Assembly (NCBI GenBank): GCA_019163375.1
Contig: JAFLKK010000005.1
Location: 35,511 to 99,510 of the forward strand
DNA: 64,000 nt
Direction: 5' to 3'
Origin: Paludibacter sp.
GTDB taxonomy: Bacteria > Bacteroidota > Bacteroidia > Bacteroidales > Paludibacteraceae
The notes beneath the pieces are model-generated. The model was given only the letters and a program-made list of their open reading frames with translations. It did no database searches and was not told the origin of the DNA. Below, in pieces: positions 7,384 through 24,960 of this stretch (within the stretch, counting starts at the first letter, position 1; each line of letters starts with the position of its first letter). A program made the translations under genes and the position numbers.

Positions 7384-7634
7384 TTTTTAAATTCTTTGAA
7401 GGCCAACCGGTACACATCAAACCGTATTCCGATAACATGGAACACTATCAATGCGCCCTGATCGCCTGTGTTGTTTATTGTAAGTGTTTTGAATGGTTCG
7501 CCATCTGAAAGTACAATCGTGCCGTTGGCCTTGAAATGATCGTCAAGCGACTTAATTAAACCATTGAGCACCTCAACCCCTTTTGGATTGAAATGCTCAA
7601 CGATCTTTTTTTTGTTCCTTAGTGCGTATCTCAT
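7380..7634 (-). CDS. small phage protein of unknown function
   Basis: This 84-residue basic protein has a pattern of two helices and a beta hairpin, and no recognised motif. It overlaps both neighbours by four bases (ATGA at each junction), so it is translated together with the 241- and 604-residue proteins. Those overlaps are the main support that it is a real gene. Confidence 0.5.
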   Translation of the reverse strand: MRYALRNKKKIVEHFNPKGVEVLNGLIKSLDDHFKANGTIVLSDGEPFKTLTINNTGDQGALIVFHVIGIRFDVYRLAFKEFKK

Positions 7635-8356
7635 TTCAGAGTAGCTTGTTTTATCTCATATTTAATCTCTTCTGTTATTTCGTCTGACGTTTCAATAGGA
7701 ATGCCGGCTTCTATTGTTTTAAGTACTTTTTTAAGTACAGATAATAATCTAGGTGAAGCAGTCATTACCCTTGCCCTAGATTTAGCTTCATCTACTATTC
7801 CTTCCGGGGCGTATACCTCAGCAAAACTACCTTCTTTCTCACTACCTATAAAAATGCGATCACCTATTTTCAAGAACCCCCAACTTTCCAATGAAGATAT
7901 AGTATCATTCTTATTCTCAACTTCTATTCTTATTTTACATTCTAGTTGCAACCCTCTTTCGCATGCTTCAAATGCCGTCTTAAATACTCCTTCGACATCT
8001 ACAACAACTCCTGTTTCTTTGTCCTTTACATAAAGAGCAAAAGGGTTAGTCGGTTCAAAAGTTCTTTTGATTAAATAATTATCACTACTCCAGTTCTCGC
8101 ACCTTTCGTCTAAAATAGCATCTAACTCCTCTAACTCTTTCTCATAACTTAGATTGTCTGAATCATCACCAACTAGATTTACAGACATCATTAAAGAAGC
8201 ATAACGACAATATTCTTCTTCTGAAAAAATTGTTTGATAAACGTTGAAATGCTTGTCTTGATTAATCGGCAGTTCAATACACGCACTTTTGTTATCATTT
8301 AAACTGACTTTAAAATCATAAAAGTGTGTATATTGATGATAACAAACTGTTATCAT
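7631..8356 (-). CDS. acidic phage protein with start codon inside a hairpin
   Basis: This 241-residue acidic protein has a C-terminal ASPRLLSVLKK segment, a short motif that recurs in many phage early proteins of unknown function. The middle is beta-rich around a GDRIFIG sequence. The ATG at 8356 lies within an inverted repeat (8326-8363), so the start codon would be paired in the RNA. It begins the four-gene leftward run that ends at 5172. No function can be assigned. Confidence 0.55.
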   Translation of the reverse strand: MITVCYHQYTHFYDFKVSLNDNKSACIELPINQDKHFNVYQTIFSEEEYCRYASLMMSVNLVGDDSDNLSYEKELEELDAILDERCENWSSDNYLIKRTFEPTNPFALYVKDKETGVVVDVEGVFKTAFEACERGLQLECKIRIEVENKNDTISSLESWGFLKIGDRIFIGSEKEGSFAEVYAPEGIVDEAKSRARVMTASPRLLSVLKKVLKTIEAGIPIETSDEITEEIKYEIKQATLK

Positions 8357-8788: not shown

Positions 8789-9619
8789 TTACTTTTCGAA
8801 TAGGTTATAATCACGGTTTACACAATTTGCAGGCAATTCTTCACGGCTTATACATGCTTGTTTAAGCAATGAATCTTTGAAGTAAATAGGATATTCAATG
8901 TTCTCTGTAAGCATTTTTACAAAATACTTCACATCTAATCTTTTGTATTGTTTTCCACTTTCAAGTCCAACCTTATACAAATCACAAAATCCTCTAGTTT
9001 CTTTCATTATTTCATAACTAATCGAAAAATCTATTACCGGTTCAATACTTGCAAAAGTTTTAAATCCACCTTCGTGTAATATCTTCATTGCCTTAATACG
9101 TTCAGTATTTGTACTTGCACCCGGTTCAAGTTCATCATGTCCTGTAAGGGAAAAACCAAATGCAACATAAGACTTATTTTGTTCGTAAAGAATTGTTTCT
9201 TTTATTGGGCTACCGCTAAGAAGCCGTTTAAAGAACTTTTCGTAAAAATCTGCACGTTTAGTGAGTACCTTAACCGGAATAGAATTTTGTATACAAATAT
9301 CAATAGCCTTTATAGTAAGATCGATTGTTTCCGGTAGAAATGGGTCGCTTGTAAAAGTAAAGAATAACCCATGCTTGCGTAATTCTATAAGGTTTAAGAA
9401 AATCTCGTTTTGGAAGATTCGCAATGCGTCTTCTTCATCTTTGAAACACTTTTTCAGTGTTGGTACTTCTCCACCCATTACGTGGCCTAGTACGCCTTTC
9501 TTTAGGTAGCAGTATGTACAGCAATTGGAACAGCCTGTATAAAAATTACATGCCCAGTACGAGTACTCTCCGGCCTTTCCCGAAGGGTTATAAATAGATT
9601 TCCCGTTGAATTTTTCCAT
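8789..9619 (-). CDS. radical SAM protein of the SplB type
   Basis: This 276-residue protein carries the radical SAM signature CxxxCxxC at C30, C34 and C37 (in TGCSNCCTYC), which binds a [4Fe-4S] cluster and S-adenosylmethionine. The layout after it, including SLTGHDELEPGAS and FASIEPVID, follows the spore-photoproduct-lyase-like group (COG1533). Relatives repair thymine lesions or act on unknown nucleic acid or protein substrates. The catalytic class is supported by sequence; the substrate is not. It lies in the early region among small unknown genes, which favours a DNA or RNA modifying role. Confidence 0.8.
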   Translation of the reverse strand: MEKFNGKSIYNPSGKAGEYSYWACNFYTGCSNCCTYCYLKKGVLGHVMGGEVPTLKKCFKDEEDALRIFQNEIFLNLIELRKHGLFFTFTSDPFLPETIDLTIKAIDICIQNSIPVKVLTKRADFYEKFFKRLLSGSPIKETILYEQNKSYVAFGFSLTGHDELEPGASTNTERIKAMKILHEGGFKTFASIEPVIDFSISYEIMKETRGFCDLYKVGLESGKQYKRLDVKYFVKMLTENIEYPIYFKDSLLKQACISREELPANCVNRDYNLFEK

Positions 9620-11008: not shown

Positions 11009-11342
11009 GTTTATCTTCTTGTGGTTTAAATTCAATTTGTCTAAAACTCTCTACAGTTTCGTAACATCTCACATAGGAGCTACCTTGGCCGTTTACATCA
11101 AAACCATCAAACTCTAAGAAGTGATCTCCTGCTTTTTGACCCCGGAACATTCTTCCGCTAGTCGTTTGCATAATTACATCTTCAGTTGAAGTCAGTGTGT
11201 TGATCGGTTCCCATTCAGTCGCCCAGGATAATGTATTTTTTATTGCAAGTTTTAGCAAATGCTTAAGTTTATTATCCTGATCTTTCCCCGGGGTTTTACC
11301 CATTGTATCGGAGTAACGTATTCTATCTTCAAATTTTTTCAT
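10998..11342 (-). CDS. phage protein of unknown function
   Basis: This 114-residue soluble protein has a helical basic N-terminus and a beta-rich second half with several Gly and aromatic residues (GRMFRGQKAGDHFLEFDG). No family is recognised. It overlaps the DUF1064 nuclease gene by four bases upstream and the 75-residue gene by 11 bases downstream, so it is part of the replication/recombination operon. Confidence 0.5.
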   Translation of the reverse strand: MKKFEDRIRYSDTMGKTPGKDQDNKLKHLLKLAIKNTLSWATEWEPINTLTSTEDVIMQTTSGRMFRGQKAGDHFLEFDGFDVNGQGSSYVRCYETVESFRQIEFKPQEDKHGS

Positions 11343-11695
11343 ACTTCCACTATTTTGATTCCATGAATAAATAACATTAGTTTCTTTTTAATTCGATACA
11401 CTTCTGTTTTCATGCCTTTAGCATCAACAACGACTAATTTTCCATTCTCGTAGTAAACAAAATCAGCCTTGTATGTACAAGGCTGTTCAACTGTTCTCAA
11501 CTTTTCTACGATCTTAGTTTTCTTTTGAATCTCGATCGTTTCTGTCTGCTTAGGAAGTAACTCAAATACTTTCTGCTCATCTAAGCCTAGTATCTCTCCG
11601 GCTTTCTCACGTAGCTTTAAAATTACTGAGTGTTCGTACTCACGCTTTGAATCGTAACCTTTATACTTCGTTGCGTTATATTTATTCTTTGCCAT
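11339..11695 (-). CDS. DUF1064 PD-(D/E)XK nuclease-like protein
   Basis: This 118-residue protein has the usual length of the phage DUF1064 family. It opens with KYNATKYKGYDSKREYEH, the family's substitute for the usual FDSKxEA start. The nuclease core is visible as D78 in YKADFVYY and D91-x-K93 in VVVDAKG. Family members are predicted endonucleases that may resolve branched DNA in phage replication, in the place occupied by RusA in other phages. It overlaps both neighbours and belongs to the recombination block with NinG and HNH genes. Confidence 0.8.
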   Translation of the reverse strand: MAKNKYNATKYKGYDSKREYEHSVILKLREKAGEILGLDEQKVFELLPKQTETIEIQKKTKIVEKLRTVEQPCTYKADFVYYENGKLVVVDAKGMKTEVYRIKKKLMLFIHGIKIVEV

Positions 11696-13248: not shown

Positions 13249-13373
13249 CTCTTTTTATTATTAGGCCTACTACGGTAATTCAGATACCAAAAAACAAATA
13301 GTAAGAAGTAAAACACTAATACGAATTTCCATGCATTGAATGGGTTAATCAGGAAGTCTATTATTATTTTCAT
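13245..13373 (-). CDS. 42-residue single-span membrane protein
   Basis: A short frame is opened by an ATG at 13373 and closed by a TGA at 13245-13247. It has a short amphipathic start, a strongly hydrophobic segment at about residues 15-33 (rich in Phe, Leu and Val), then an Arg/Lys tail. The orientation predicted by the positive-inside rule leaves the C-terminus in the cytoplasm. Its start overlaps the stop of the NinG-like gene (ATGA), and its stop overlaps the start of the next gene (ATGA). Double coupling supports it as real; function is unknown. Confidence 0.6.
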   Translation of the reverse strand: MKIIIDFLINPFNAWKFVLVFYFLLFVFWYLNYRSRPNNKKR

Positions 13374-13765
13374 TTCGATAATCTTTCTTTAAGTAATTCC
13401 CTGAGTTTAATTTTGAACTCATTTATAATCTCTTTGCCTTCACTGTCAGATATTTTACATACCGATCGGCTAAGCCTTTCAAGTTCCTCGACACGTTCTA
13501 ACCCTTTTATCTTGATTAGCTCTTCCCGGAACTTCTTGTCTTTGTTTTCAGTTCCCCGGTTGCACTCTATACATTGAGGTCTGCAGTTGTCCTCTTCGTA
13601 GCGTGTAGCATGGTTACCTCTTTTGCAGAAGTGTCCGTTATCTATCTCGCTGATCGGGAATGTTCGCTTACAGGTAATGCAGGTGCAAATACCATTTACT
13701 GAGTTCAGGTTTCTGATATAAATACTGAAAACTCGATCGGCTTCTTTTTCTATTTTTGCATTCAT
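13370..13765 (-). CDS. ninG: NinG/Rap-like recombination endonuclease
   Basis: I use the ATG at 13765 rather than a TTG at 13774, giving 131 residues. The protein has a CTCITC cysteine pair (about 27-32), then a GHFCKRGNHATRYEEDN segment and CRPQCIECNRG (about 61-71). This matches the order seen in lambda NinG (Rap): a first zinc ligand pair, a GH motif, the RGxH and EDN core, and a second Cys set. NinG nucleases cut branched recombination intermediates. It sits between replication genes and the small membrane gene, consistent with a role in late replication or recombination. Confidence 0.75.
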   Translation of the reverse strand: MNAKIEKEADRVFSIYIRNLNSVNGICTCITCKRTFPISEIDNGHFCKRGNHATRYEEDNCRPQCIECNRGTENKDKKFREELIKIKGLERVEELERLSRSVCKISDSEGKEIINEFKIKLRELLKERLSK

Positions 13766-13766
13766 T

Positions 13767-14291
13767 TTACTCAAACATTAATATTTTAATAACTTCATTG
13801 AATTTTATAAGCAGGTCTTTGTCTATCTCGTATAGGTCTGCACTAGATTTAAGGGCGTTTGCAAGGTCTTTTTGGTAGAAGTCAAAGTGTGGGTCTTTCG
13901 ATCGGAAAACTTCTTCCATTTGGCGGGAAAGTCGATATATCTTTTCGCAAATTATTGGAAAGAGTTTGTCTTTACTTGATAGAGGTAGTAAGTGTTCAGC
14001 AACATGATCTGACCAATCCCCAAAACTTTCGGCTGATTGCTCGCTTGTACCCTTTACCTGTTCTCGTAGCTTTACTGCTATGTTGTAAATATCTTCTTTC
14101 CCGCCTAAATCCAGTGTTAAGCCTTCAAGTATCATTGACAAGGCATAGATCATATTCACCTTTGGAGCTTGTTTCTGATTTATGATCTTTTCTTGTTTCT
14201 TAGTAAGTTTGGGTTTAATTATTCGTTTGGGTTGTGGTCTGTCAATCTCTCGAAAGAACTGCGACATCCCTCTTGTGCCAATTGTTATCAT
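13767..14291 (-). CDS. phage replication-region protein of unknown function
   Basis: This 174-residue protein has a basic, proline-containing N-terminus (about 1-45) and a helical remainder. No motif is recognised. It overlaps the DnaC-like loader gene by four bases and abuts the NinG-like gene, so it is made with the replication proteins. A helicase-loading partner or single-strand-binding role would fit the position but cannot be shown. Confidence 0.5.
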   Translation of the reverse strand: MITIGTRGMSQFFREIDRPQPKRIIKPKLTKKQEKIINQKQAPKVNMIYALSMILEGLTLDLGGKEDIYNIAVKLREQVKGTSEQSAESFGDWSDHVAEHLLPLSSKDKLFPIICEKIYRLSRQMEEVFRSKDPHFDFYQKDLANALKSSADLYEIDKDLLIKFNEVIKILMFE

Positions 14292-15975: not shown

Positions 15976-16780
15976 TTACTGCTCGATTATCACGATATTT
16001 GGAGCAATTTCACGTATTTGTGCTAACTCCTCGTCAATAACCTTATCACGAAGTGTTTCAAATATTTCATTTGCACCTGGCGAAACTAATTGAAGAGAAA
16101 CTTCACGGCCACTTACTGTAGAGTAAAATTCAACATCAATTAATTCACGTTCTGTGCCTTTAAATATTGGAAGGCTTACGCTGAACGATTCAGGAAGGTT
16201 TGAGCTTACAACTGCGCTAAAATTGTCTTTTTCCTACATTTATGTCATCTATTTTAAAGCTACCTTGATCTTCTTTCTGTTTCTCAATAGTTTGATCTAC
16301 TTTTGCAAAGAAATTTTTCAAGTCCGCTACAAGTTGCATGTTCTTTGATTTGTCCGGGAAAAATGCACGATTCATCTTCAAGAACTGACCTAGTGCGTTA
16401 GGTTCCCATGTCTTTTTGCTGTCGTTTATACCGAACTCGACAAACTTGGGGTGAAGTGTGAGTATTCCTTTTACAGTCCCTCTCTTGTATTCATCGTGTT
16501 CGTCTATAATCAGCGTTATAGAAACGTTTTCACGATCTACCAGCACATGTAAGCGGGTTGGGTCGAAGTGAGCATCTATGAGTACAGGCTCATACGCATA
16601 AGCTGCAGTAAAGTTGTGAGGAAATCTTCTTCTCAGAAATTCAACCGGTGAACCGATATTTCCAATAATAGCAATTTTTACTGGCGGTTTTACATCTGAA
16701 ATGTTTTTTGCTTTACCTTCTCTGATAACTAATTCTGTTTGTCCTTCGTTAAGGACAACTTGCAATTTTTCGTTTTCCAT
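15976..16780 (-). pseudogene. DUF2303/YfdQ-like phage protein split by a frameshift
   Basis: The intact-looking frame from the ATG at 16780 ends at a TAG at 16217 after 187 residues. The minus strand then stays coding in another frame, with protein-like sequence (LPESFSVSLPIFKG, EVSLQLVSPG, RDKVIDEELAQI), to a TAA at 15976. The switch lies at a run of five A (plus-strand T run 16228-16232). Removing one A joins the parts into a 267-residue protein, close to the usual length of DUF2303 proteins, whose C-terminus it resembles. This could be a mutation, a sequence error or programmed +1/-2 frameshifting. Family assignment is moderate. Confidence 0.6.
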
Positions 16781-16803: not shown

Positions 16804-17253
16804 TTAATTGTTTGTACCTGTTTGTCTATCCATTGAATAGATTGTCGCCTGTGCTTCGTCAGGTGTCATTGGTCGTGCATTTACCAACTCGCCTTCTGAG
16901 TTATAAAACCCGGTCATTCTAGCATCATGATCTACGAACTTGTAACATCTTTCATTTACTAGCTCGGCTTTCTCTTTGATGTTTTTCAAAAGTTCAGTCT
17001 TTTGTTTTTTGAGAGGTTTCAACTGATCTGAGAATGCCTTAGCAGTTTCTTTTTTGTCAATTTCAACATCGTTGATAATGATAGAAAGATCAGAAAGATC
17101 ATTCTTTAAAAGAGTAACCTTTTCGGGGTCAAACCGCTTCATGTATTCAAGCGATTCAATTCCGTCAGCATTCGCTCTCAAATAGTTCTCTCTTTCGTTT
17201 AGGTCTGCAATTTCTTGGCCTAATGCCTTGTCTAATGAATTTTTCTTTGCCAT
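16804..17253 (-). CDS. coiled-coil phage protein
   Basis: This 149-residue Lys/Glu-rich protein has a long predicted coiled coil (about residues 10-105) and a short globular end containing ARPMTPDEAQATI. No catalytic motif is seen. It lies between the DUF2303-like gene and the nuclease-FtsK fusion, 36 bases from the latter. The arrangement suggests it is an accessory protein of the recombination module, but this is inferred only from position. Confidence 0.55.
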   Translation of the reverse strand: MAKKNSLDKALGQEIADLNERENYLRANADGIESLEYMKRFDPEKVTLLKNDLSDLSIIINDVEIDKKETAKAFSDQLKPLKKQKTELLKNIKEKAELVNERCYKFVDHDARMTGFYNSEGELVNARPMTPDEAQATIYSMDRQTGTNN

Positions 17254-17289: not shown

Positions 17290-19368
17290 TTATTCTTTGT
17301 AAAATGCTTGAAATCTAGTCACGGAAAGGTATTCGGGCGACTTTATAAGTCCATCACCTCTTCCGTTAAGGGCTTCTGCTCCCGGTTCGTCAATTACTAC
17401 AATTGAATCAATATCCTTTGGAACTCTAAAGCATATTTGAACAGGGAAATTCACCTTAGCGTCTCCGGTGATTACTTTTGTGGACGCTCTTTGTGTTGCT
17501 GCGATAATACGGAACCCGGACGAACGGCCTTTCTGCAAAAGCACACGAAGATTTTCTTCAAGTGGTTTGTCTACGCTTATACATTCTCTTCTTGTCTTTT
17601 CCCTTCCATCCTTGTAATGTCCGTAAACTACATCTTCGTAATTTTTCAATTCATTTCCTTTTCTTGAATTGGCCACTGCATCTGCGAACTCGTCAAATAT
17701 CACAAGTGTTTTTACAGATATTTGAGATTTTACACGTATCTCCATTTCTTCTACGAGCTTTTTCATCTCTCGTTCAATGTCCTCAATGTCGTTTATTACG
17801 TCCACACCCTGAATCCTTGCGTACTGTGTAAATTCAAACTTAGGGTCGAAGATCACAACCTTTCCGAATACTCCTTGAAGTCCGTATTCCAGTGTAGATT
17901 TTATCCATACTGATTTACCTGAACCGGTAGCACCACAAACAAGGGCATGAGGTGTAGAGTGGTTGTCTGTGTCCCATATCAATGTTTGGCCGAAGTTGTC
18001 AACTCCAATCGGTATTTTGTTGCCGATCAGTTTTGTTTTATCCCAAAACAGCGTTGAAGTGCTTTTCTTTCCTGATTCAATTGTGAGGTAAGATTTTCCT
18101 CCATAAACTAAAAGGTCTTTCTGAATGCGGACGTTTGGAACGTTCAGGGCATTTGCAATATCAAGTTTATACTTGCTTATAGCACTTATAGAAGTACCGG
18201 CATTTATTGCTAGTAAGTATGAAGAGCTTGAATAGCCGTCAAATGTGTGTTGCACTTCGGTAACGATACCGAACGATCGCAAAACGTGTTCTATTTTTTG
18301 TTGATTTGTCATGTCTTTGTTTGATAGATCATACGGAATGAATTGTTCCGCATATTTTTTGAAGTTTTTAATAACAGTAGGAGTGATGCTGCCTAGTGAA
18401 GCATCCCTGATCTTTCGAAGTCGGGCTTCGATAAGAGGTTTTTTATTTTCCGGCACATTGAAACTTTCAATTTCGGCCAACATTGTTTTAGCCCAAAACT
18501 CGTACATCTCGGCCTTGTCTATGAAGTTATCGCTATCATTGATAAGGTAGACGTAATCGGGGTCATTGACTGCTGTAATCATTCTCTTAAGTGGTTCATA
18601 CAGCAATGCTTCATAGAGCCTTCTTGTGCTTTTATCCATTATAGATTTAAAGCATAGTAATTGCGGTGATCTATCCTTATTCTTTGGCAGTTTGTTTTCG
18701 ATAAACCAAACTTCGTCAACTGTGTTTCCTGTTTCTGATTCGTAGCCTAGAACATAGGTTACGGCCTGTTTTCCGATAGAGAAACGCAATTCTGATTCGT
18801 CCGTAAATCTGCTCCTGGACTTGTGATCTATAATCACACGTTTATCATCATTTGTGATTATCACTAAGTCAATAACTAGGTAGCATGGTAGTGGAATATC
18901 TACACCGTTGACCCTTACCCATGATTTCATTTTTACTTCGGAATGAACAACTTCTTTGATCTCTGAAAGGTACACCTGTGCTTCTGACATAAAGTTGTTT
19001 ATAAGTGTGGAAGTGTTCTTGATTGCACTTTGTATGCAGTCGTCTACGGTTGGGTTCGTTTTTTGTATCTTCCATGTGTCTGCCGGTTTTTCGTCAATGT
19101 ATGCGAATGCGATCTGTTCCAGTTCCACAATATCTGTGGACATTCCAACCTTAAGATTATTGAAAAACAAGTCTAAGGCTTTGTGATAGGCTTGCCCGGC
19201 TACAGTGGTTGCAGACGATTTCCCTTTGTGTCCATACACGTATGACATTTCAAATCCTTTTTCATTACGTGAGAAAGAATCTACCCGGGAATATGACCAA
19301 TAATCAATAAGGTAGTTTGACAATAACTCCTCAATCTGTTCGTGCGTTAGGTTTTTGTATCTACTCAT
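17290..19368 (-). CDS. RecB-type nuclease fused to an FtsK/HerA-type motor ATPase
   Basis: This is a 692-residue fusion. Residues 1 to about 300 form a PD-(D/E)XK nuclease of the RecB/Cas4 kind: H62 in GQAYHKAL, D167 in YLVIDLV, D181-x-K183 in IIDHKS, and the QxxxY helix at Q201-Y205. Residues of about 365-445 resemble the domain before the FtsK motor. The motor follows with Walker A GATGSGKS (479-486), Walker B LVIFDE (555-560), AATQR (623-627) and a GxGDGL end (670-674). FtsK-type motors translocate on double-stranded DNA, so the protein probably resects or degrades DNA ends while moving. Its ATG overlaps the stop of the annealing-like gene (ATGA). Confidence 0.85.
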   Translation of the reverse strand: MSRYKNLTHEQIEELLSNYLIDYWSYSRVDSFSRNEKGFEMSYVYGHKGKSSATTVAGQAYHKALDLFFNNLKVGMSTDIVELEQIAFAYIDEKPADTWKIQKTNPTVDDCIQSAIKNTSTLINNFMSEAQVYLSEIKEVVHSEVKMKSWVRVNGVDIPLPCYLVIDLVIITNDDKRVIIDHKSRSRFTDESELRFSIGKQAVTYVLGYESETGNTVDEVWFIENKLPKNKDRSPQLLCFKSIMDKSTRRLYEALLYEPLKRMITAVNDPDYVYLINDSDNFIDKAEMYEFWAKTMLAEIESFNVPENKKPLIEARLRKIRDASLGSITPTVIKNFKKYAEQFIPYDLSNKDMTNQQKIEHVLRSFGIVTEVQHTFDGYSSSSYLLAINAGTSISAISKYKLDIANALNVPNVRIQKDLLVYGGKSYLTIESGKKSTSTLFWDKTKLIGNKIPIGVDNFGQTLIWDTDNHSTPHALVCGATGSGKSVWIKSTLEYGLQGVFGKVVIFDPKFEFTQYARIQGVDVINDIEDIEREMKKLVEEMEIRVKSQISVKTLVIFDEFADAVANSRKGNELKNYEDVVYGHYKDGREKTRRECISVDKPLEENLRVLLQKGRSSGFRIIAATQRASTKVITGDAKVNFPVQICFRVPKDIDSIVVIDEPGAEALNGRGDGLIKSPEYLSVTRFQAFYKE

Positions 19369-20222
19369 GGCATTTCGGGTGGGGTGGTTATTTTCTTGCT
19401 AGAAGTAGCCTGTTTCTTTTTAAGGGTTACTTTCTTTACTTCCGGTGTGGGTTTTACAGTATTTCTCTTTAGTAAATCTTCTACTGTAAATTCCTTGTCC
19501 TTTAGAGATTGTAAATATCCTTGCAAGTCTGCTATATTTTCAGCAGTTACAGCTTCCTTTGTATTCAGGCCTATACATTTTATCACATCTTGTTCAGACA
19601 TAGCGTAGGTGTTCTTGAACACGTTGAAAATTCTGTTTCTCTCTTTGAGTAGCATTGCATTATCAGAAAGATCACCGTAGGCAAATTTGAATGCTTCAGC
19701 ATACACTATGTCGATGATTGACTTAGGTATAATTTTAAATATAGCATTACGCTCAGCTATTGCCATTACGGCCATAGCGTTAGTTTCTATAGTAGAATCA
19801 TCGTATCTTGTTCCATCCCTCTTAATGATAGATCGCCTTGCTTCTACACATACAGCGTAGTTTGTTTCCAAGTCGAATGCTACTGCTTCTGCAACTATAA
19901 CTTTATGTTCAATAGACTTAATTCTCTGTTGAACTCGTATGTTTCCGTATTGCTGACAAATTATCCGGGCTAAGTGAACACTGGCACCGTTTATGGTTTT
20001 AGTTCCAACAGGCTTAGCATATCTGCAAGTTAGAGCAGTTTCTTTATTGAATGTTGCTATCACAATACTTTCATTTAGTACTCTTTTCAAAGTACGTGGA
20101 AACTTCCTAGCTGTCGCTATCTGAGAATTTATCGATGCACGCTCTTGCGCTTCGAAAATGTCTACTCCAGTCGTTTCAATAACCTCTATATCTTCATCTT
20201 GAATTGTTACTTCTTTTGGCAT
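19365..20222 (-). CDS. conserved phage protein, possible single-strand annealing protein
   Basis: This 285-residue protein has a core that runs from INGASVHLAR (77-86) through QQYGNIRVQ to IETNAMAVMAIAERNAI, then a Lys/Pro/Thr-rich tail (about 255-285). The pattern of a GxSVxLAR motif followed by YGN and a long beta-helix core is one I associate with a widespread family of uncharacterised phage proteins found next to exonucleases. No RecT, Erf or Rad52 motif is clear. The stop overlaps the start of the nuclease-motor fusion. That tight pairing is what suggests an annealing function; it is not shown by the sequence. Confidence 0.55.
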   Translation of the reverse strand: MPKEVTIQDEDIEVIETTGVDIFEAQERASINSQIATARKFPRTLKRVLNESIVIATFNKETALTCRYAKPVGTKTINGASVHLARIICQQYGNIRVQQRIKSIEHKVIVAEAVAFDLETNYAVCVEARRSIIKRDGTRYDDSTIETNAMAVMAIAERNAIFKIIPKSIIDIVYAEAFKFAYGDLSDNAMLLKERNRIFNVFKNTYAMSEQDVIKCIGLNTKEAVTAENIADLQGYLQSLKDKEFTVEDLLKRNTVKPTPEVKKVTLKKKQATSSKKITTPPEMP

Positions 20223-22411: not shown

Positions 22412-23194
22412 TTAGATTTTAGATTGTGGAAATAGTGAGTGTATAAATTGTCGGCCTTTTTCAGTCCATACAGTTTGTGTATTTGTTCCGGTTTCACCGT
22501 TAGATTTGGTGTATGTAGTAGTGTGGGATTTAGTATATCCGTTTCCTACATATTGTCTGTATAGCATCCATTGTCCGTCAACTTTTCGCTGAACTCTCAT
22601 TTCAGCTAGTTTTCTGTTCATAGCTACTGCGCTAACACCAAGTTCCTGTGCAATACGAGTTATGACATAAGTTTCAGTGCTTTGAAGTACAGTGTCGAAA
22701 TATTCAGCTTTTGGGGCTATAGTGGCAATCTCACGCTGTTGTAGTACGTTTTGATTCAATAGCCGTTGCTTTTCTTCTCTTTCAACTTTTAATGCTGTGA
22801 GGGCATTAATCATGGCATCAGGATTTGTAAGCATTTGCTCCATCATCTGATTTGTAGTCGTTACTCCATGGCGAAGTAGTTCTTTTATGCGATCGTTTGC
22901 CCAAATTGCAAATGATGGGGATAGCCAACGTGCAAACTCAATCGCAACATCTTCTTGCATCCATGTTCCATCATTCAATCCACCTTTTCTAATGCTCACT
23001 AATTCAGCCGAAGTACAATTTCTCACTTCGGATAGCTCGTTTATGAAATTTTGAGCACTTTGAGTTCTCAAAAAGTCTACAGGTCTTTTACCAAACTGTT
23101 GCGCCATTTCAGTTGCTGAAATAAAAACTACTCCGTTTTCATTTTTGAAAGTTACCGGAGCATTGTTGTAGCTGAATATTTGCATTGCTTCCAT
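22412..23194 (-). CDS. phage antirepressor with KilA-N and ANT domains
   Basis: This 260-residue protein has an N-terminal KilA-N domain (about 1-110) containing FISATEMAQQFGKRPVDFL and a WMQEDVAIEFARWLSPSFA motif that is diagnostic for the family. A helical linker follows, then a C-terminal ANT/KilAC domain (about 145-258) with APKAEYFDTVL and YVGNGYTKS. Antirepressors of this kind counter the lysogenic repressor and promote induction. It is the second gene of the leftward early operon, just downstream of the operators at 23493-23542, where such control is expected. Confidence 0.85.
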   Translation of the reverse strand: MEAMQIFSYNNAPVTFKNENGVVFISATEMAQQFGKRPVDFLRTQSAQNFINELSEVRNCTSAELVSIRKGGLNDGTWMQEDVAIEFARWLSPSFAIWANDRIKELLRHGVTTTNQMMEQMLTNPDAMINALTALKVEREEKQRLLNQNVLQQREIATIAPKAEYFDTVLQSTETYVITRIAQELGVSAVAMNRKLAEMRVQRKVDGQWMLYRQYVGNGYTKSHTTTYTKSNGETGTNTQTVWTEKGRQFIHSLFPQSKI

Positions 23195-23559: not shown

Positions 23560-24234
23560 ATGGATTTTAAAACTACTTTGAGTAAAGTGCTTGAATTAAA
23601 GCAAATTACTCCTTACAGGATAGGTAAGGATACTAGTGTTTCAAAGCAATCTGTTATGAATTACATGTCAGGTAAATCAATTCCAAGTGGAGATGCTTTA
23701 AAAGAATTGGCAGATTATTTAAATGTTACAACTGATTATTTGATAGGAAATAGTAGTTCTAATGACGTAGATTCTAGTATGTCTTTTATGGAAAAAAACA
23801 ATGCATTTCCATCTAAACCACATGTAGATTCTACTTATGCAGATTGTGGAAAGCCGGGTGGTTTTAGTTTATGTGTAAAAAAAGAAGAGTGTGAGATGAT
23901 TTCGTTACCATTTTTGAAAGATTATGATTTCTCTATTACGGCTTCAGGCCAAAGTATGATAAATAGAACTGATACCAGTAGATCAATTAGAAGTGGAGAT
24001 ATTGTAGCTTGTAAATTGGTAAAATCAAGAACTCATGTAAGGTTTGGAGAAGTGTATGCTTTGTCAACTGTTGATGGGTTTACAATTAAAAAGGTAGTCG
24101 AATCAAATATGGAAGGTTGCATTAGATGTGAATCTTTTAATGTGGAGGATGGCTTTACACCTTTCGATATTCCAACTAATGAAATATTTGATTGGGCTTT
24201 TGTTATTGGTGTTGCAAGTATAAATAAATGGTAA
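23560..24234 (+). CDS. CI/LexA-like lysogeny repressor with S24 peptidase domain
   Basis: This 224-residue protein has an N-terminal XRE helix-turn-helix (about 10-60, with KDTSVSKQSVMNYMSGKS) and a C-terminal LexA/S24 domain. The catalytic Ser is S132 in SGQSM and the Lys is K177 in FTIKKV. A likely self-cleavage point is C96-G97 in ADCGKPGG, using Cys-Gly instead of the common Ala-Gly. RecA-stimulated cleavage would induce the prophage after DNA damage. It is the only early-side gene on the plus strand and faces two operators. It is followed 4 bases later by a membrane protein gene. Confidence 0.9.
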   Translation: MDFKTTLSKVLELKQITPYRIGKDTSVSKQSVMNYMSGKSIPSGDALKELADYLNVTTDYLIGNSSSNDVDSSMSFMEKNNAFPSKPHVDSTYADCGKPGGFSLCVKKEECEMISLPFLKDYDFSITASGQSMINRTDTSRSIRSGDIVACKLVKSRTHVRFGEVYALSTVDGFTIKKVVESNMEGCIRCESFNVEDGFTPFDIPTNEIFDWAFVIGVASINKW

Positions 24235-24238
24235 GATT

Positions 24239-24736
24239 ATGAATATTACAATAAGTATAATTTTGACGGTTGTAATTTTATTTTTTATAAACAGTTGGTT
24301 TTTTAAAAAGAAGTTAAACCCAATAAATTCTATACGATTTGATGGCTGTATGGGTTTTAGAATAGGTGATAGTCGTAGTCTTGTGATGTCTCGATTGAAT
24401 CATTTGAATATGTTGTCAGAAGATGAAAAGGGAGATATTGAAATAAGTAATAGATTTAAACTTAGTGTAGATTCCATAACTACTTCAACTGGATTGTTCA
24501 ACAATATAAAAAGTGTAAATTTTACTTTTGAAGATGAGTGTTTGAAGTCGATTTTTATACCAATAAATTCAGAACAATCAGATAGCAGTACTGTGGTTAA
24601 TTATTTATTAAAACTAATGTCTAGTAGGCTAGGAAAATGTACATTTGAATTTGAAAATAATACTGTTTGGAGAGTTAAAAATAGAACTATCTCTTTGACT
24701 AAAAACATGGCAGATGCCTACATAAGCATTAATTAA
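24239..24736 (+). CDS. membrane-anchored protein co-expressed with the repressor
   Basis: This 165-residue protein has an N-terminal hydrophobic segment (about 4-22) followed by KKK, giving a single anchor, and a soluble domain with GFRIGDSRSLVMSRLN that looks like small bacterial secreted or periplasmic domains. The positive residues after the anchor suggest a cytoplasmic body. It lies 4 bases after the repressor stop, so it would be made in the lysogen. That position is typical of superinfection-exclusion or lysogenic-conversion genes; the role is inferred from context only. Confidence 0.55.
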   Translation: MNITISIILTVVILFFINSWFFKKKLNPINSIRFDGCMGFRIGDSRSLVMSRLNHLNMLSEDEKGDIEISNRFKLSVDSITTSTGLFNNIKSVNFTFEDECLKSIFIPINSEQSDSSTVVNYLLKLMSSRLGKCTFEFENNTVWRVKNRTISLTKNMADAYISIN

Positions 24737-24743
24737 CATATTG

Positions 24744-24768
24744 TTGTTTCGAAATTGTTTCGAAACAA
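24744..24768. repeat. tandem repeat with palindrome near the attachment site
   Basis: TTGTTTCGAAA occurs twice in tandem (24744-24754 and 24755-24765). The second copy extends to a perfect 14-bp palindrome, TTGTTTCGAAACAA (24755-24768). It lies 50 bases from the tRNA fragment and just after the membrane gene. It may be an arm-type integrase or excisionase site or a transcript end. Confidence 0.5.
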
Positions 24769-24818
24769 AGTATTGTTATGTCGTAATAGTTTATAAATAA
24801 GTCCTTTAAATGTGTTGT

Positions 24819-24868
24819 GCACCTGCTTTGGGAGCAGGGGGTCGTGGGTTCGAATCCCGCTACCCCGA
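24819..24868 (+). other. right attachment site: 3' half of tRNA-Pro(UGG)
   Basis: The sequence contains the anticodon arm with loop TTTGGGA (anticodon TGG), variable region, T arm GGGTTCGAATCCC and the acceptor 3' strand TACCCCG plus discriminator A. The acceptor 5' strand and D arm are absent upstream. This is the remnant left when an element integrates into a tRNA gene and supplies its own 3' end at the other junction. The terminator at 24872 belongs to the original tRNA, so the host side is to the right and the restored tRNA should lie at the left prophage end, outside the window. Confidence 0.8.
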
Positions 24869-24871
24869 CAG

Positions 24872-24909
24872 AAAAAGGATTTACCGTTTATTCGGTAGAT
24901 CCTTTTTTC
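24872..24909 (+). terminator. terminator of the interrupted tRNA-Pro
   Basis: AAAAAGGAT and TACCG pair with CGGTA and ATCCTTTTT, and a T run follows. It lies 3 bases after the tRNA fragment. Confidence 0.75.
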
Positions 24910-24960
24910 TTTTTTAAGAAAAAAAAACATTCATATAAAGAGAGTGTTCAAAAATTAATC

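Follow-up and report, generated by a model that had tools for sequence, protein, structure and literature searches.

How a phage exonuclease keeps to the right annealing partner is an unsettled question, and two adjacent genes in a genome of Paludibacter sp. raise it for a case in which one family of nuclease-motor proteins is met with many families of annealing proteins. The genes lie in a stretch of 64,000 nucleotides (GenBank assembly GCA_019163375.1, contig JAFLKK010000005.1, positions 35,511 to 99,510), referred to here as the window. Both open reading frames (ORFs) proposed in an original prediction made from this DNA exist on the minus strand: P0002, an annealing-type protein of 285 amino acids (aa) at 19365..20222, and P0001, a fusion of 692 aa at 17290..19368, with the stop of the former and the start of the latter overlapping by the four bases ATGA (19365..19368). 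Together they probably form a two-component phage exonuclease-annealase module, in which a ring-forming motor-nuclease is served by a single-strand annealing protein (SSAP) docked on it through its C-terminal tail. It is also favoured, with somewhat less assurance, that the dock is a transplantable code: a tip some three to five residues in length, [DE]-[LM]-P-COOH (often after K-x), would have been gained on many occasions by roughly eight families whose cores show no detectable similarity, and would couple them to one single-chain nuclease-translocase. Exonuclease-annealase pairs as such are already known; the new parts are the fused motor-nuclease and the fold-independent tip, and the available portions of the open-access literature yielded no description of either. 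With the mark of the right partner confined to a few residues, the partner question can be addressed by peptides and truncations.

P0001 is identified from its domains and motifs as a RecB-type PD-(D/E)XK nuclease fused to an FtsK motor. Three Pfam matches lie above their cut-offs: PDDEXK_1 at residues 24-231 (1.8e-7; 18676..19299), FtsK_alpha at 353-431 (1.4e-8; 18076..18312), and FtsK_SpoIIIE at 450-547 (3.5e-9), the last within a beta (motor) domain spanning residues 450-690 (17299..18021) by alignment and Foldseek. The motif set of RecB-type PD-(D/E)XK nucleases consists of H, D, D-x-K, and Q-x3-Y. In an alignment of P0001 with 35 relatives, from which L034 (loci are numbered with L) was dropped as cut by a contig end, the nuclease residues H62, E144, D167, D181-x-K183, and Q201-x3-Y205 are invariant in 36/36 sequences. 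So are the motor residues G479, G482, S483, G484, and K485 of Walker A (479-486), D559 and E560 of Walker B (555-560), and G671, D672, and L674 of the GRGDGL motif (669-674), while T481, F558, and G673 each differ in one of the 36. The original prediction of a RecB/Cas4-type nuclease joined to an FtsK motor is borne out by these domains and by the invariance, among homologues, of the catalytic and most Walker residues. The AlphaFold2 (AF2) model of P0001 has a mean predicted local distance difference test (pLDDT) of 82.6 and a predicted template modelling score (pTM) of 0.49. Its nearest solved relatives are FtsK motor domains, both by sequence (2ius, 7e-26) and by Foldseek (6t8o, 5.7e-24), and the fold also matches Cas4-family ACE1 chains (7e-8; aligned range not shown), presumably through the nuclease half. 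Nuclease and motor are separated by a connector with no assigned function (residues 232-345; 18334..18675), whose block conservation is 0.66-0.80 and whose AF2 confidence is low at 276-282 and 324-351. At one other locus, the fusion gene (L168:3784-6687) contains an intein with an HNH endonuclease domain inside Walker A (GATG/SGKS), as placed by alignment and matched by Pfam Intein_splicing (6.3e-13) and HNH_3 (2e-9).

The alpha and beta domains and the Walker A and B motifs of P0001 are those of an FtsK motor. FtsK chromosome translocases carry in addition a gamma (winged helix-turn-helix) domain and a membrane N-terminus. No FtsK gamma domain is found among the Pfam matches of P0001, whose chain stops where the motor stops and whose N-terminus is formed by the nuclease, which sets it apart from these translocases. 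It likewise differs from HerA-NurA, as no NurA is present among its Pfam matches at E <= 1; the HerA central-domain model DUF87 matches P0001 too (4.5e-9), but as a superfamily relative, FtsK chains being the closest solved motors. Nor is the nuclease of the lambda-exo/YqaJ type found in SynExo systems, with no YqaJ match at E <= 1.

The fusion is not a chance arrangement, because 35 viral loci match P0001 at 51-69% identity in a protein query, 34 of them near full length and L034 up to a contig end. A profile query kept 80 fusion loci, many on the same contigs as those of the protein query, and 36 came from a scan in which each GTDB species was represented by one genome; of these, 32 carry Bacteroidota names. 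The remaining four belong to metagenome-assembled genomes labelled Sedimentibacter, Ruminococcus (two), and Gracilibacteria, and may be mis-binned phage. After removal of the window itself (L002, L039) and of duplicates with identical fusion residues 101-300, 110 distinct loci remain; partial matches at contig ends (L103, L104) did not qualify, and contig ends (L034, L176) or an early stop (L167) account for the incomplete fusions in the set. None of the 110 fusion loci showed a nuclease half standing alone. Among host genomes the module is rare: the full fusion occurs in 2/200 genomes of the same family, one of the two being that of the window, most other matches among those listed covering the motor half only, and in 1/395 genomes of the phylum at E <= 1e-100, again the window's own. 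Phage records gave 160 matches to P0001, none covering 80% of the query, and the 40 listed aligned only from about residue 261 onward. Where the host is known, the module is found mainly in viruses of Bacteroidota.

The partner gene of the fusion holds a constant place. Adjacent exonuclease and annealase genes, the arrangement of SynExo systems, are found at 109/110 distinct loci (L006 has no SSAP-type gene), with the upstream slot gene lying -20 to +99 bases from the fusion start, and hence immediately adjacent, at 102/110 and overlapping it by 4 bases (-4 spacing) at 62/110. A census with profiles of ten families, ten representatives of which were also run against Pfam and PHROGs, assigned the slot to the P0002 family at 33 loci, RecT at 17, Sak4-like at 16, phrog_561 at 15, the A7 family at 12, ERF at 7, Bet and Rad52 at 3 each, the L114 family at 2, and L021 at 1. 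Families that match known SSAPs (RecT, Bet, ERF, Rad52, Sak4-like, and the RecT-like phrog_561) account for 61/110 loci, and the other 48/110 slot proteins are counted as SSAP-type since they fill the same slot. Representative matches are RecT for L008 (3.6e-42), RecT/Bet for L016 (5.7e-29), ERF for L010 (2e-18), Rad52 for L027 (2.5e-8), RecT-like phrog_561 for L012 and L078, and AAA_24 for L011 (1.5e-13), together with a weaker Sak4-like PHROG match (1.4e-6); L114, L021, and L028 (A7 family) matched no named SSAP in Pfam or PHROGs. RecT, Bet, and phrog_561 are remotely related in sequence (the RecT model is matched by L016 and, below its cut-off, by L012), and when they are taken together the slot proteins fall into about eight sequence groups. 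Most SSAPs share the Rad52 fold.

The original prediction had paired the fusion with the 285-residue family in particular, and had named the usual absence of that neighbour as one circumstance that would speak against it. The fusion does usually occur without this family, which is present at only 33/110 loci; however, the replacements of P0002 are annealing proteins (RecT, Bet, ERF, Rad52, Sak4-like), and therefore the slot is constant, which helps the idea of pairing. The pairing of the fusion with annealing-type proteins is thus well supported, and the original prediction as a whole is partly supported. A different role for the fusion, mainly as a defence or counter-defence nuclease or as a DNA-segregation pump that adjoins SSAP genes through a shared early-gene slot, is very improbable. 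The motor half does match defence HerA, SspH, and Mads profiles, and PHROGs classes FtsK-like phage proteins as morons and host takeover; against this stand the near-constant SSAP-type gene, the tail of that gene's product, which is restricted to partners of the fusion as described below, and the lack of a gamma domain among the Pfam matches.

P0002 itself matches no Pfam or NCBIfam model, and so none of those for RecT, ERF, Rad52, or Sak; its PHROGs family, phrog_3657, is listed as unknown. No known non-annealing family was matched either, a point on which the original prediction had been open to refutation. The AF2 model of P0002 (12 sequences; pLDDT 78.7) has helices at 45-56 and 60-64, followed by two strands (67-72, 75-80), a helix (82-92), three strands (95-104, 108-117, 122-131), and a long helix (142-164). 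The fold of the Rad52 SSAP superfamily consists of alpha1, a beta-hairpin, alpha2, a three-stranded antiparallel sheet, and alpha3 (PMC9870868; this and the other articles cited are drawn on in excerpt). All five elements appear in this order in the model, as judged on order and not on strand packing. Among predicted viral structures in BFVD, the strongest matches are unnamed, and the named ones are mostly ERF, SSAP, Rad52, RecT, and Bet (from ERF 5.6e-4 to Bet 1.8e-2). Genomic context is of more help: in 38/51 distinct P0002 relatives that lack the fusion, one of the next three ORFs is an exonuclease homologue, so that members of the family mostly lie close to a recombination exonuclease, be it the fusion or another. 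These exonucleases, of YqaJ, DUF3799, RecE-like, and phrog_5715 types, were found from ten seeds, seven of which match Pfam models (six YqaJ, one DUF3799) and three the exonuclease family phrog_5715. A search of 50,697 phage records gave a single P0002 match, located in Microcystis phage Mae-JY30 at a distance of two genes from a COG5377 endonuclease gene. P0002 is probably a protein that anneals single strands, as the original prediction had suggested it might be, and the module suggests a role for phrog_3657 and for three unnamed families.

What the slot proteins have in common is their end. Proteins with little or no core similarity share a C-terminus of approximately [DE]-[LM]-P-COOH, and [LM]P is found at 82/110 loci and in at least one member of each of the ten slot families. 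P0002 ends in PPEMP, and VDLP, IDLP, LNMP, VELP, and IILP occur elsewhere. When one fusion is taken per 90% cluster (97 clusters in a 107-row set), the strict tip is present in 73/97. The 110 loci hold 1968 ORFs, of which 91 end in [LMIV]P, and 82 of those 91 are slot proteins. The window has 164 complete ORFs of >=60 aa, and P0002 alone among them ends in [LM]P. The proposed docking peptide of P0002 (19368..19457) comprises a KK-L-K linker and the PPEMP end, with pLDDT < 50 at residues 255-259 and 272-284. A KKxxL[KR] linker precedes the tip in 26/31 proteins of the P0002 family, 13/17 of RecT, 14/17 of phrog_561, and 11/13 of the A7 family near a fusion.

The tip is almost confined to SSAPs that neighbour the fusion. 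Members of six slot families, relatives from IMG/VR included, were divided into those with a fusion within about 4 kb (near) and those without (far, all from IMG/VR), and the tip was present in 75/101 near versus 1/346 far proteins. Family by family, [LMIV]P ends near versus far number 21/31 versus 0/51 for the P0002 family, 11/17 versus 1/64 for RecT, 14/16 versus 0/54 for Sak4-like, 16/17 versus 0/52 for phrog_561, 7/7 versus 0/65 for ERF, and 6/13 versus 0/60 for the A7 family (Fisher p from 1e-5 to 9e-15, shared ancestry being ignored). The scans took the best 80 of 392 (P0002), at least 586 (RecT), 133 (Sak4-like), at least 595 (phrog_561), at least 296 (ERF), and 99 (A7) relatives; 20 SSAPs with <900 bases downstream were set aside, none of which has the tip (0/20), and the Bet, Rad52, L114, and L021 families, for which there was no far set, stand outside the comparison. 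A looser definition, in which [LM] followed by L, M, A, or K is also counted, gives 97/101 near versus 18/346 far. All 75 strict cases end in P, preceded by M in 39 and by L in 36; counted back from the end, position three is E or D in 46 and position five is K in 29. When each family in turn was left out and a five-position score was trained on the rest, near and far members of the omitted family were told apart with an area under the curve of 0.91-1.00. On the tree of fusions the slot family changes 39 times by parsimony versus a shuffled mean of 65 (106 labelled tips, no account of branch support, in a 107-row tree that leaves out L168 and fusions of 640 residues or less), and therefore the tip has been regained or transferred repeatedly. 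If the docking code is true, partner specificity between exonuclease and annealase would be set by a short linear motif and not by the annealing fold.

Some slot proteins deserve separate mention. The A7 family, marked by a GNQFNI motif (e.g., L028:7312-7989 and L040:337-1263), has no Pfam or PHROG match through its representative L028, and 16/60 of its far members end in F; it is possibly another annealing family, with a different tip there. Orphan slot proteins of two further families with tail-like ends, KPELP/KPEML in L114:5076-5666 and L126:4085-4762 and NTTMP in L021:7186-8001, are possible new SSAPs. The slot proteins of L007, L033, and L040 have in common an extra region (EARxFFVxxQGF...SLAKEKGF) ahead of the tail; proteins of the P0002 type and of the A7 type both have it, so C-terminal segments have passed from family to family.

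It might be asked whether the tip is merely what the gene junction leaves behind, that is, a passive by-product carried by DNA that moves along with the fusion gene's 5' end (for translation coupling, a ribosome-binding site, or a recombination joint), with no docking. Among near proteins the strict tip occurs in 47/55 with the common 4-base overlap versus 15/32 at spacings besides -4 and -1, and some link of the tip with gene spacing remains. Yet the tip is found in 13/14 proteins at -1 junctions and in 28/46 overall without the 4-base overlap, and the tail is retained where the two genes have parted, at L018 (523 bases), L025 (1.6 kb), and L034 (196 bases). Conversely, only 1/88 far SSAPs with an ATGA stop have the tip; the overlap needs only a codon ending in A, and therefore proline is not forced. 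The tip is not simply a by-product of the overlap, and an explanation without docking is improbable. At L018, an ORF that is HNH-like by eye (7477-8004) stands between the fusion and the SSAP, which still ends in MEMP.

If the tip docks, its likeliest receptor is the fusion, because members of these SSAP families hardly ever have the tip where the fusion is missing and because, within flanks that are short at many loci, the fusion is the only gene family found at all 110, the next commonest being present at 47/110. This partner-restricted tail points, indirectly, to a physical interaction of fusion and SSAP. In an alternative, which is unlikely though less so than the by-product explanation, the two proteins are a recombination pair but the tail binds host single-stranded DNA-binding protein (SSB), the clamp, or another protein, and fusion and tail co-occur through shared hosts or phages. 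C-terminal tips of the SSB type are known recruiters, and the HK620 SSB loses most of its stimulation of Sak4 without its last six residues (PMC5928155). No receptor site has been located on the fusion, which also suits this alternative. It is at odds with the 1/346 count in same-family SSAPs without the fusion and with the fusion being the only gene family found at all loci within the limited flanks, and the tip is without the terminal F of the SSB tails quoted in the excerpt of PMC5928155.

A number of observations weigh against a docked SSAP of this kind. For P0002, no SSAP model was matched in Pfam, a Foldseek search of the PDB gave no solved SSAP among 50 listed matches (best E 0.054), and the named BFVD matches have TM-scores of only about 0.1-0.3. 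Profile comparisons with RecT, phrog_561, and A7 aligned the tail or little more, at probabilities of 22, 11, and 14%, and that with ERF gave 0.1%; core similarity of P0002 to these four was thus rejected by profile-profile comparison. The P0002, A7, L114, and L021 families are rated SSAP-type mainly by their position in the slot. The linker is found in only 1/16 Sak4-like and 1/7 ERF near proteins, and therefore only the tip is general. That tip is itself not [LM]P at 28/110 loci: 24 have a final L, M, A, K, or Y after L or M, and four are other or absent, comprising L006 without an SSAP, L037 ending in FDLPS, L017 with an early stop, and L084 with a shifted frame (in the last two, EMP and DMP ends are readable beyond the break in the printed frames, which were not joined). 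At spacings besides -4 and -1 fewer than half of near proteins have the strict tip, as given above. The tail was noticed on the near set before the test, so that the far sets are its independent half. With respect to the receptor, neither residue association nor region trees located a site: the strongest associations with tail class fall on residues of the nuclease half and connector, in a test that ignores ancestry, and tail class takes 13 parsimony steps on the nuclease tree and 15 each on those of connector and motor. Finally, 5 kb of flank is available downstream at 80/110 loci and upstream at 73/110, which makes 47/110 a lower bound and another linked receptor gene besides the fusion possible given the short flanks.

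Under the favoured model of a tail-docked SSAP, annealing, cutting, and pumping are predicted functions of the module. The fusion would assemble as an FtsK-like ring and pump double-stranded DNA into its own nuclease domains, where the RecB-type nuclease would resect the end. One strand would be handed to the SSAP, held on the fusion by its tail, in which a flexible linker (KKxxL[KR] in several families) leads to the docking end [DE]-[LM]-P-COOH. The protein of the upstream gene would then coat the exposed single strand and anneal it to a strand complementary to it; the polarity, unwinding, and loading that the model contains are likewise conjectured. As the tail is independent of the annealing fold, phages could exchange RecT, Bet, ERF, Rad52, Sak4-like, and unnamed SSAPs while the coupling is kept.

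The closest counterparts in gene pairing are Lambda Red and RecE/RecT (SynExo), which, like the module, combine a nuclease with an annealing protein. The lambda model assigns to the exonuclease the loading of the annealase on the strand it exposes, and contact between them matters for double-strand substrates (PMC5052646). The SynExo annealase contributes its C-terminus to the exonuclease contact (PMC5052646), and a tail contact is proposed for the module also. The nuclease differs, being a YqaJ/lambda-exo enzyme in SynExo and a PDDEXK_1 nuclease fused to an ATP motor here, as does the proposed contact, which is made by a folded domain in SynExo and would be made by a tip of few residues in the module. 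Moreover, the partners of Red-alpha/Red-beta and RecE/RecT are not interchangeable (PMC5052646), whereas one nuclease family of the module is found with many SSAP families. HerA-NurA also joins a double-stranded DNA motor of the FtsK-HerA superfamily to a nuclease, and its resection is regulated by translocation (PMC9960219). The module may be regarded as a one-chain analogue of such resection in phages, distinguished by its single polypeptide, a RecB-type nuclease in place of NurA, an FtsK-type alpha/beta motor, and the accompanying SSAP gene.

With respect to the tip, a C-terminal element common to different SSAP families has been suggested to spread by shuffling (PMC8093625), and the tip is likewise C-terminal. 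That element, however, is a folded domain with no partner specificity in the excerpted description (PMC8093625), whereas the tip is of low model confidence, probably disordered, and almost only found near one nuclease family. SSB tips such as DDDIPF and NDYPPF (PMC5928155) resemble it in being short and acidic-hydrophobic with proline near the end, and they recruit other proteins. In contrast to these, the module tip is located on an annealing protein, is proline-terminal, and tracks the presence of the fusion.

The module appears to be limited to its two genes. Downstream of the fusion on the same strand are genes for a 149-aa protein (16804..17253; phrog_12688, unknown) and a 187-aa protein (16217..16780; phrog_11501, unknown), which the original prediction had taken, as coiled-coil and DUF2303-like proteins, for further parts of the system. 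Neither has a match at 36 other loci (BLAST 1e-4), so that a fixed four-gene cassette was rejected and both are probably outside the module; the DUF2303-like label was not sustained for the 187-aa protein, with no Pfam match of that kind at E <= 1. No further member of the ten slot families was found in the window with profiles built from those families. Other minus-strand genes provide context only, namely that of a NinG-like protein (13370..13774; PF05766, 2.5e-15) and that of a Holliday junction resolvase-like protein (11339..11695; DUF1064 in Pfam, phrog_190 in PHROGs). Further minus-strand ORFs include one with a cysteine cluster at 8789-9619, radical SAM-like by eye and with no Pfam match at 0.001, and a KilA-N plus ANT antirepressor at 22412-23194, close to a gene on the plus strand that is repressor-like by eye (23560-24234). 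Small ORFs of the 'GSGIRTHDPLLPKQ' kind often mark tRNA-like sequence. One such ORF is present at 24733-24930 on the minus strand, where ARAGORN found no tRNA, and is possibly an att-site remnant at the prophage edge.

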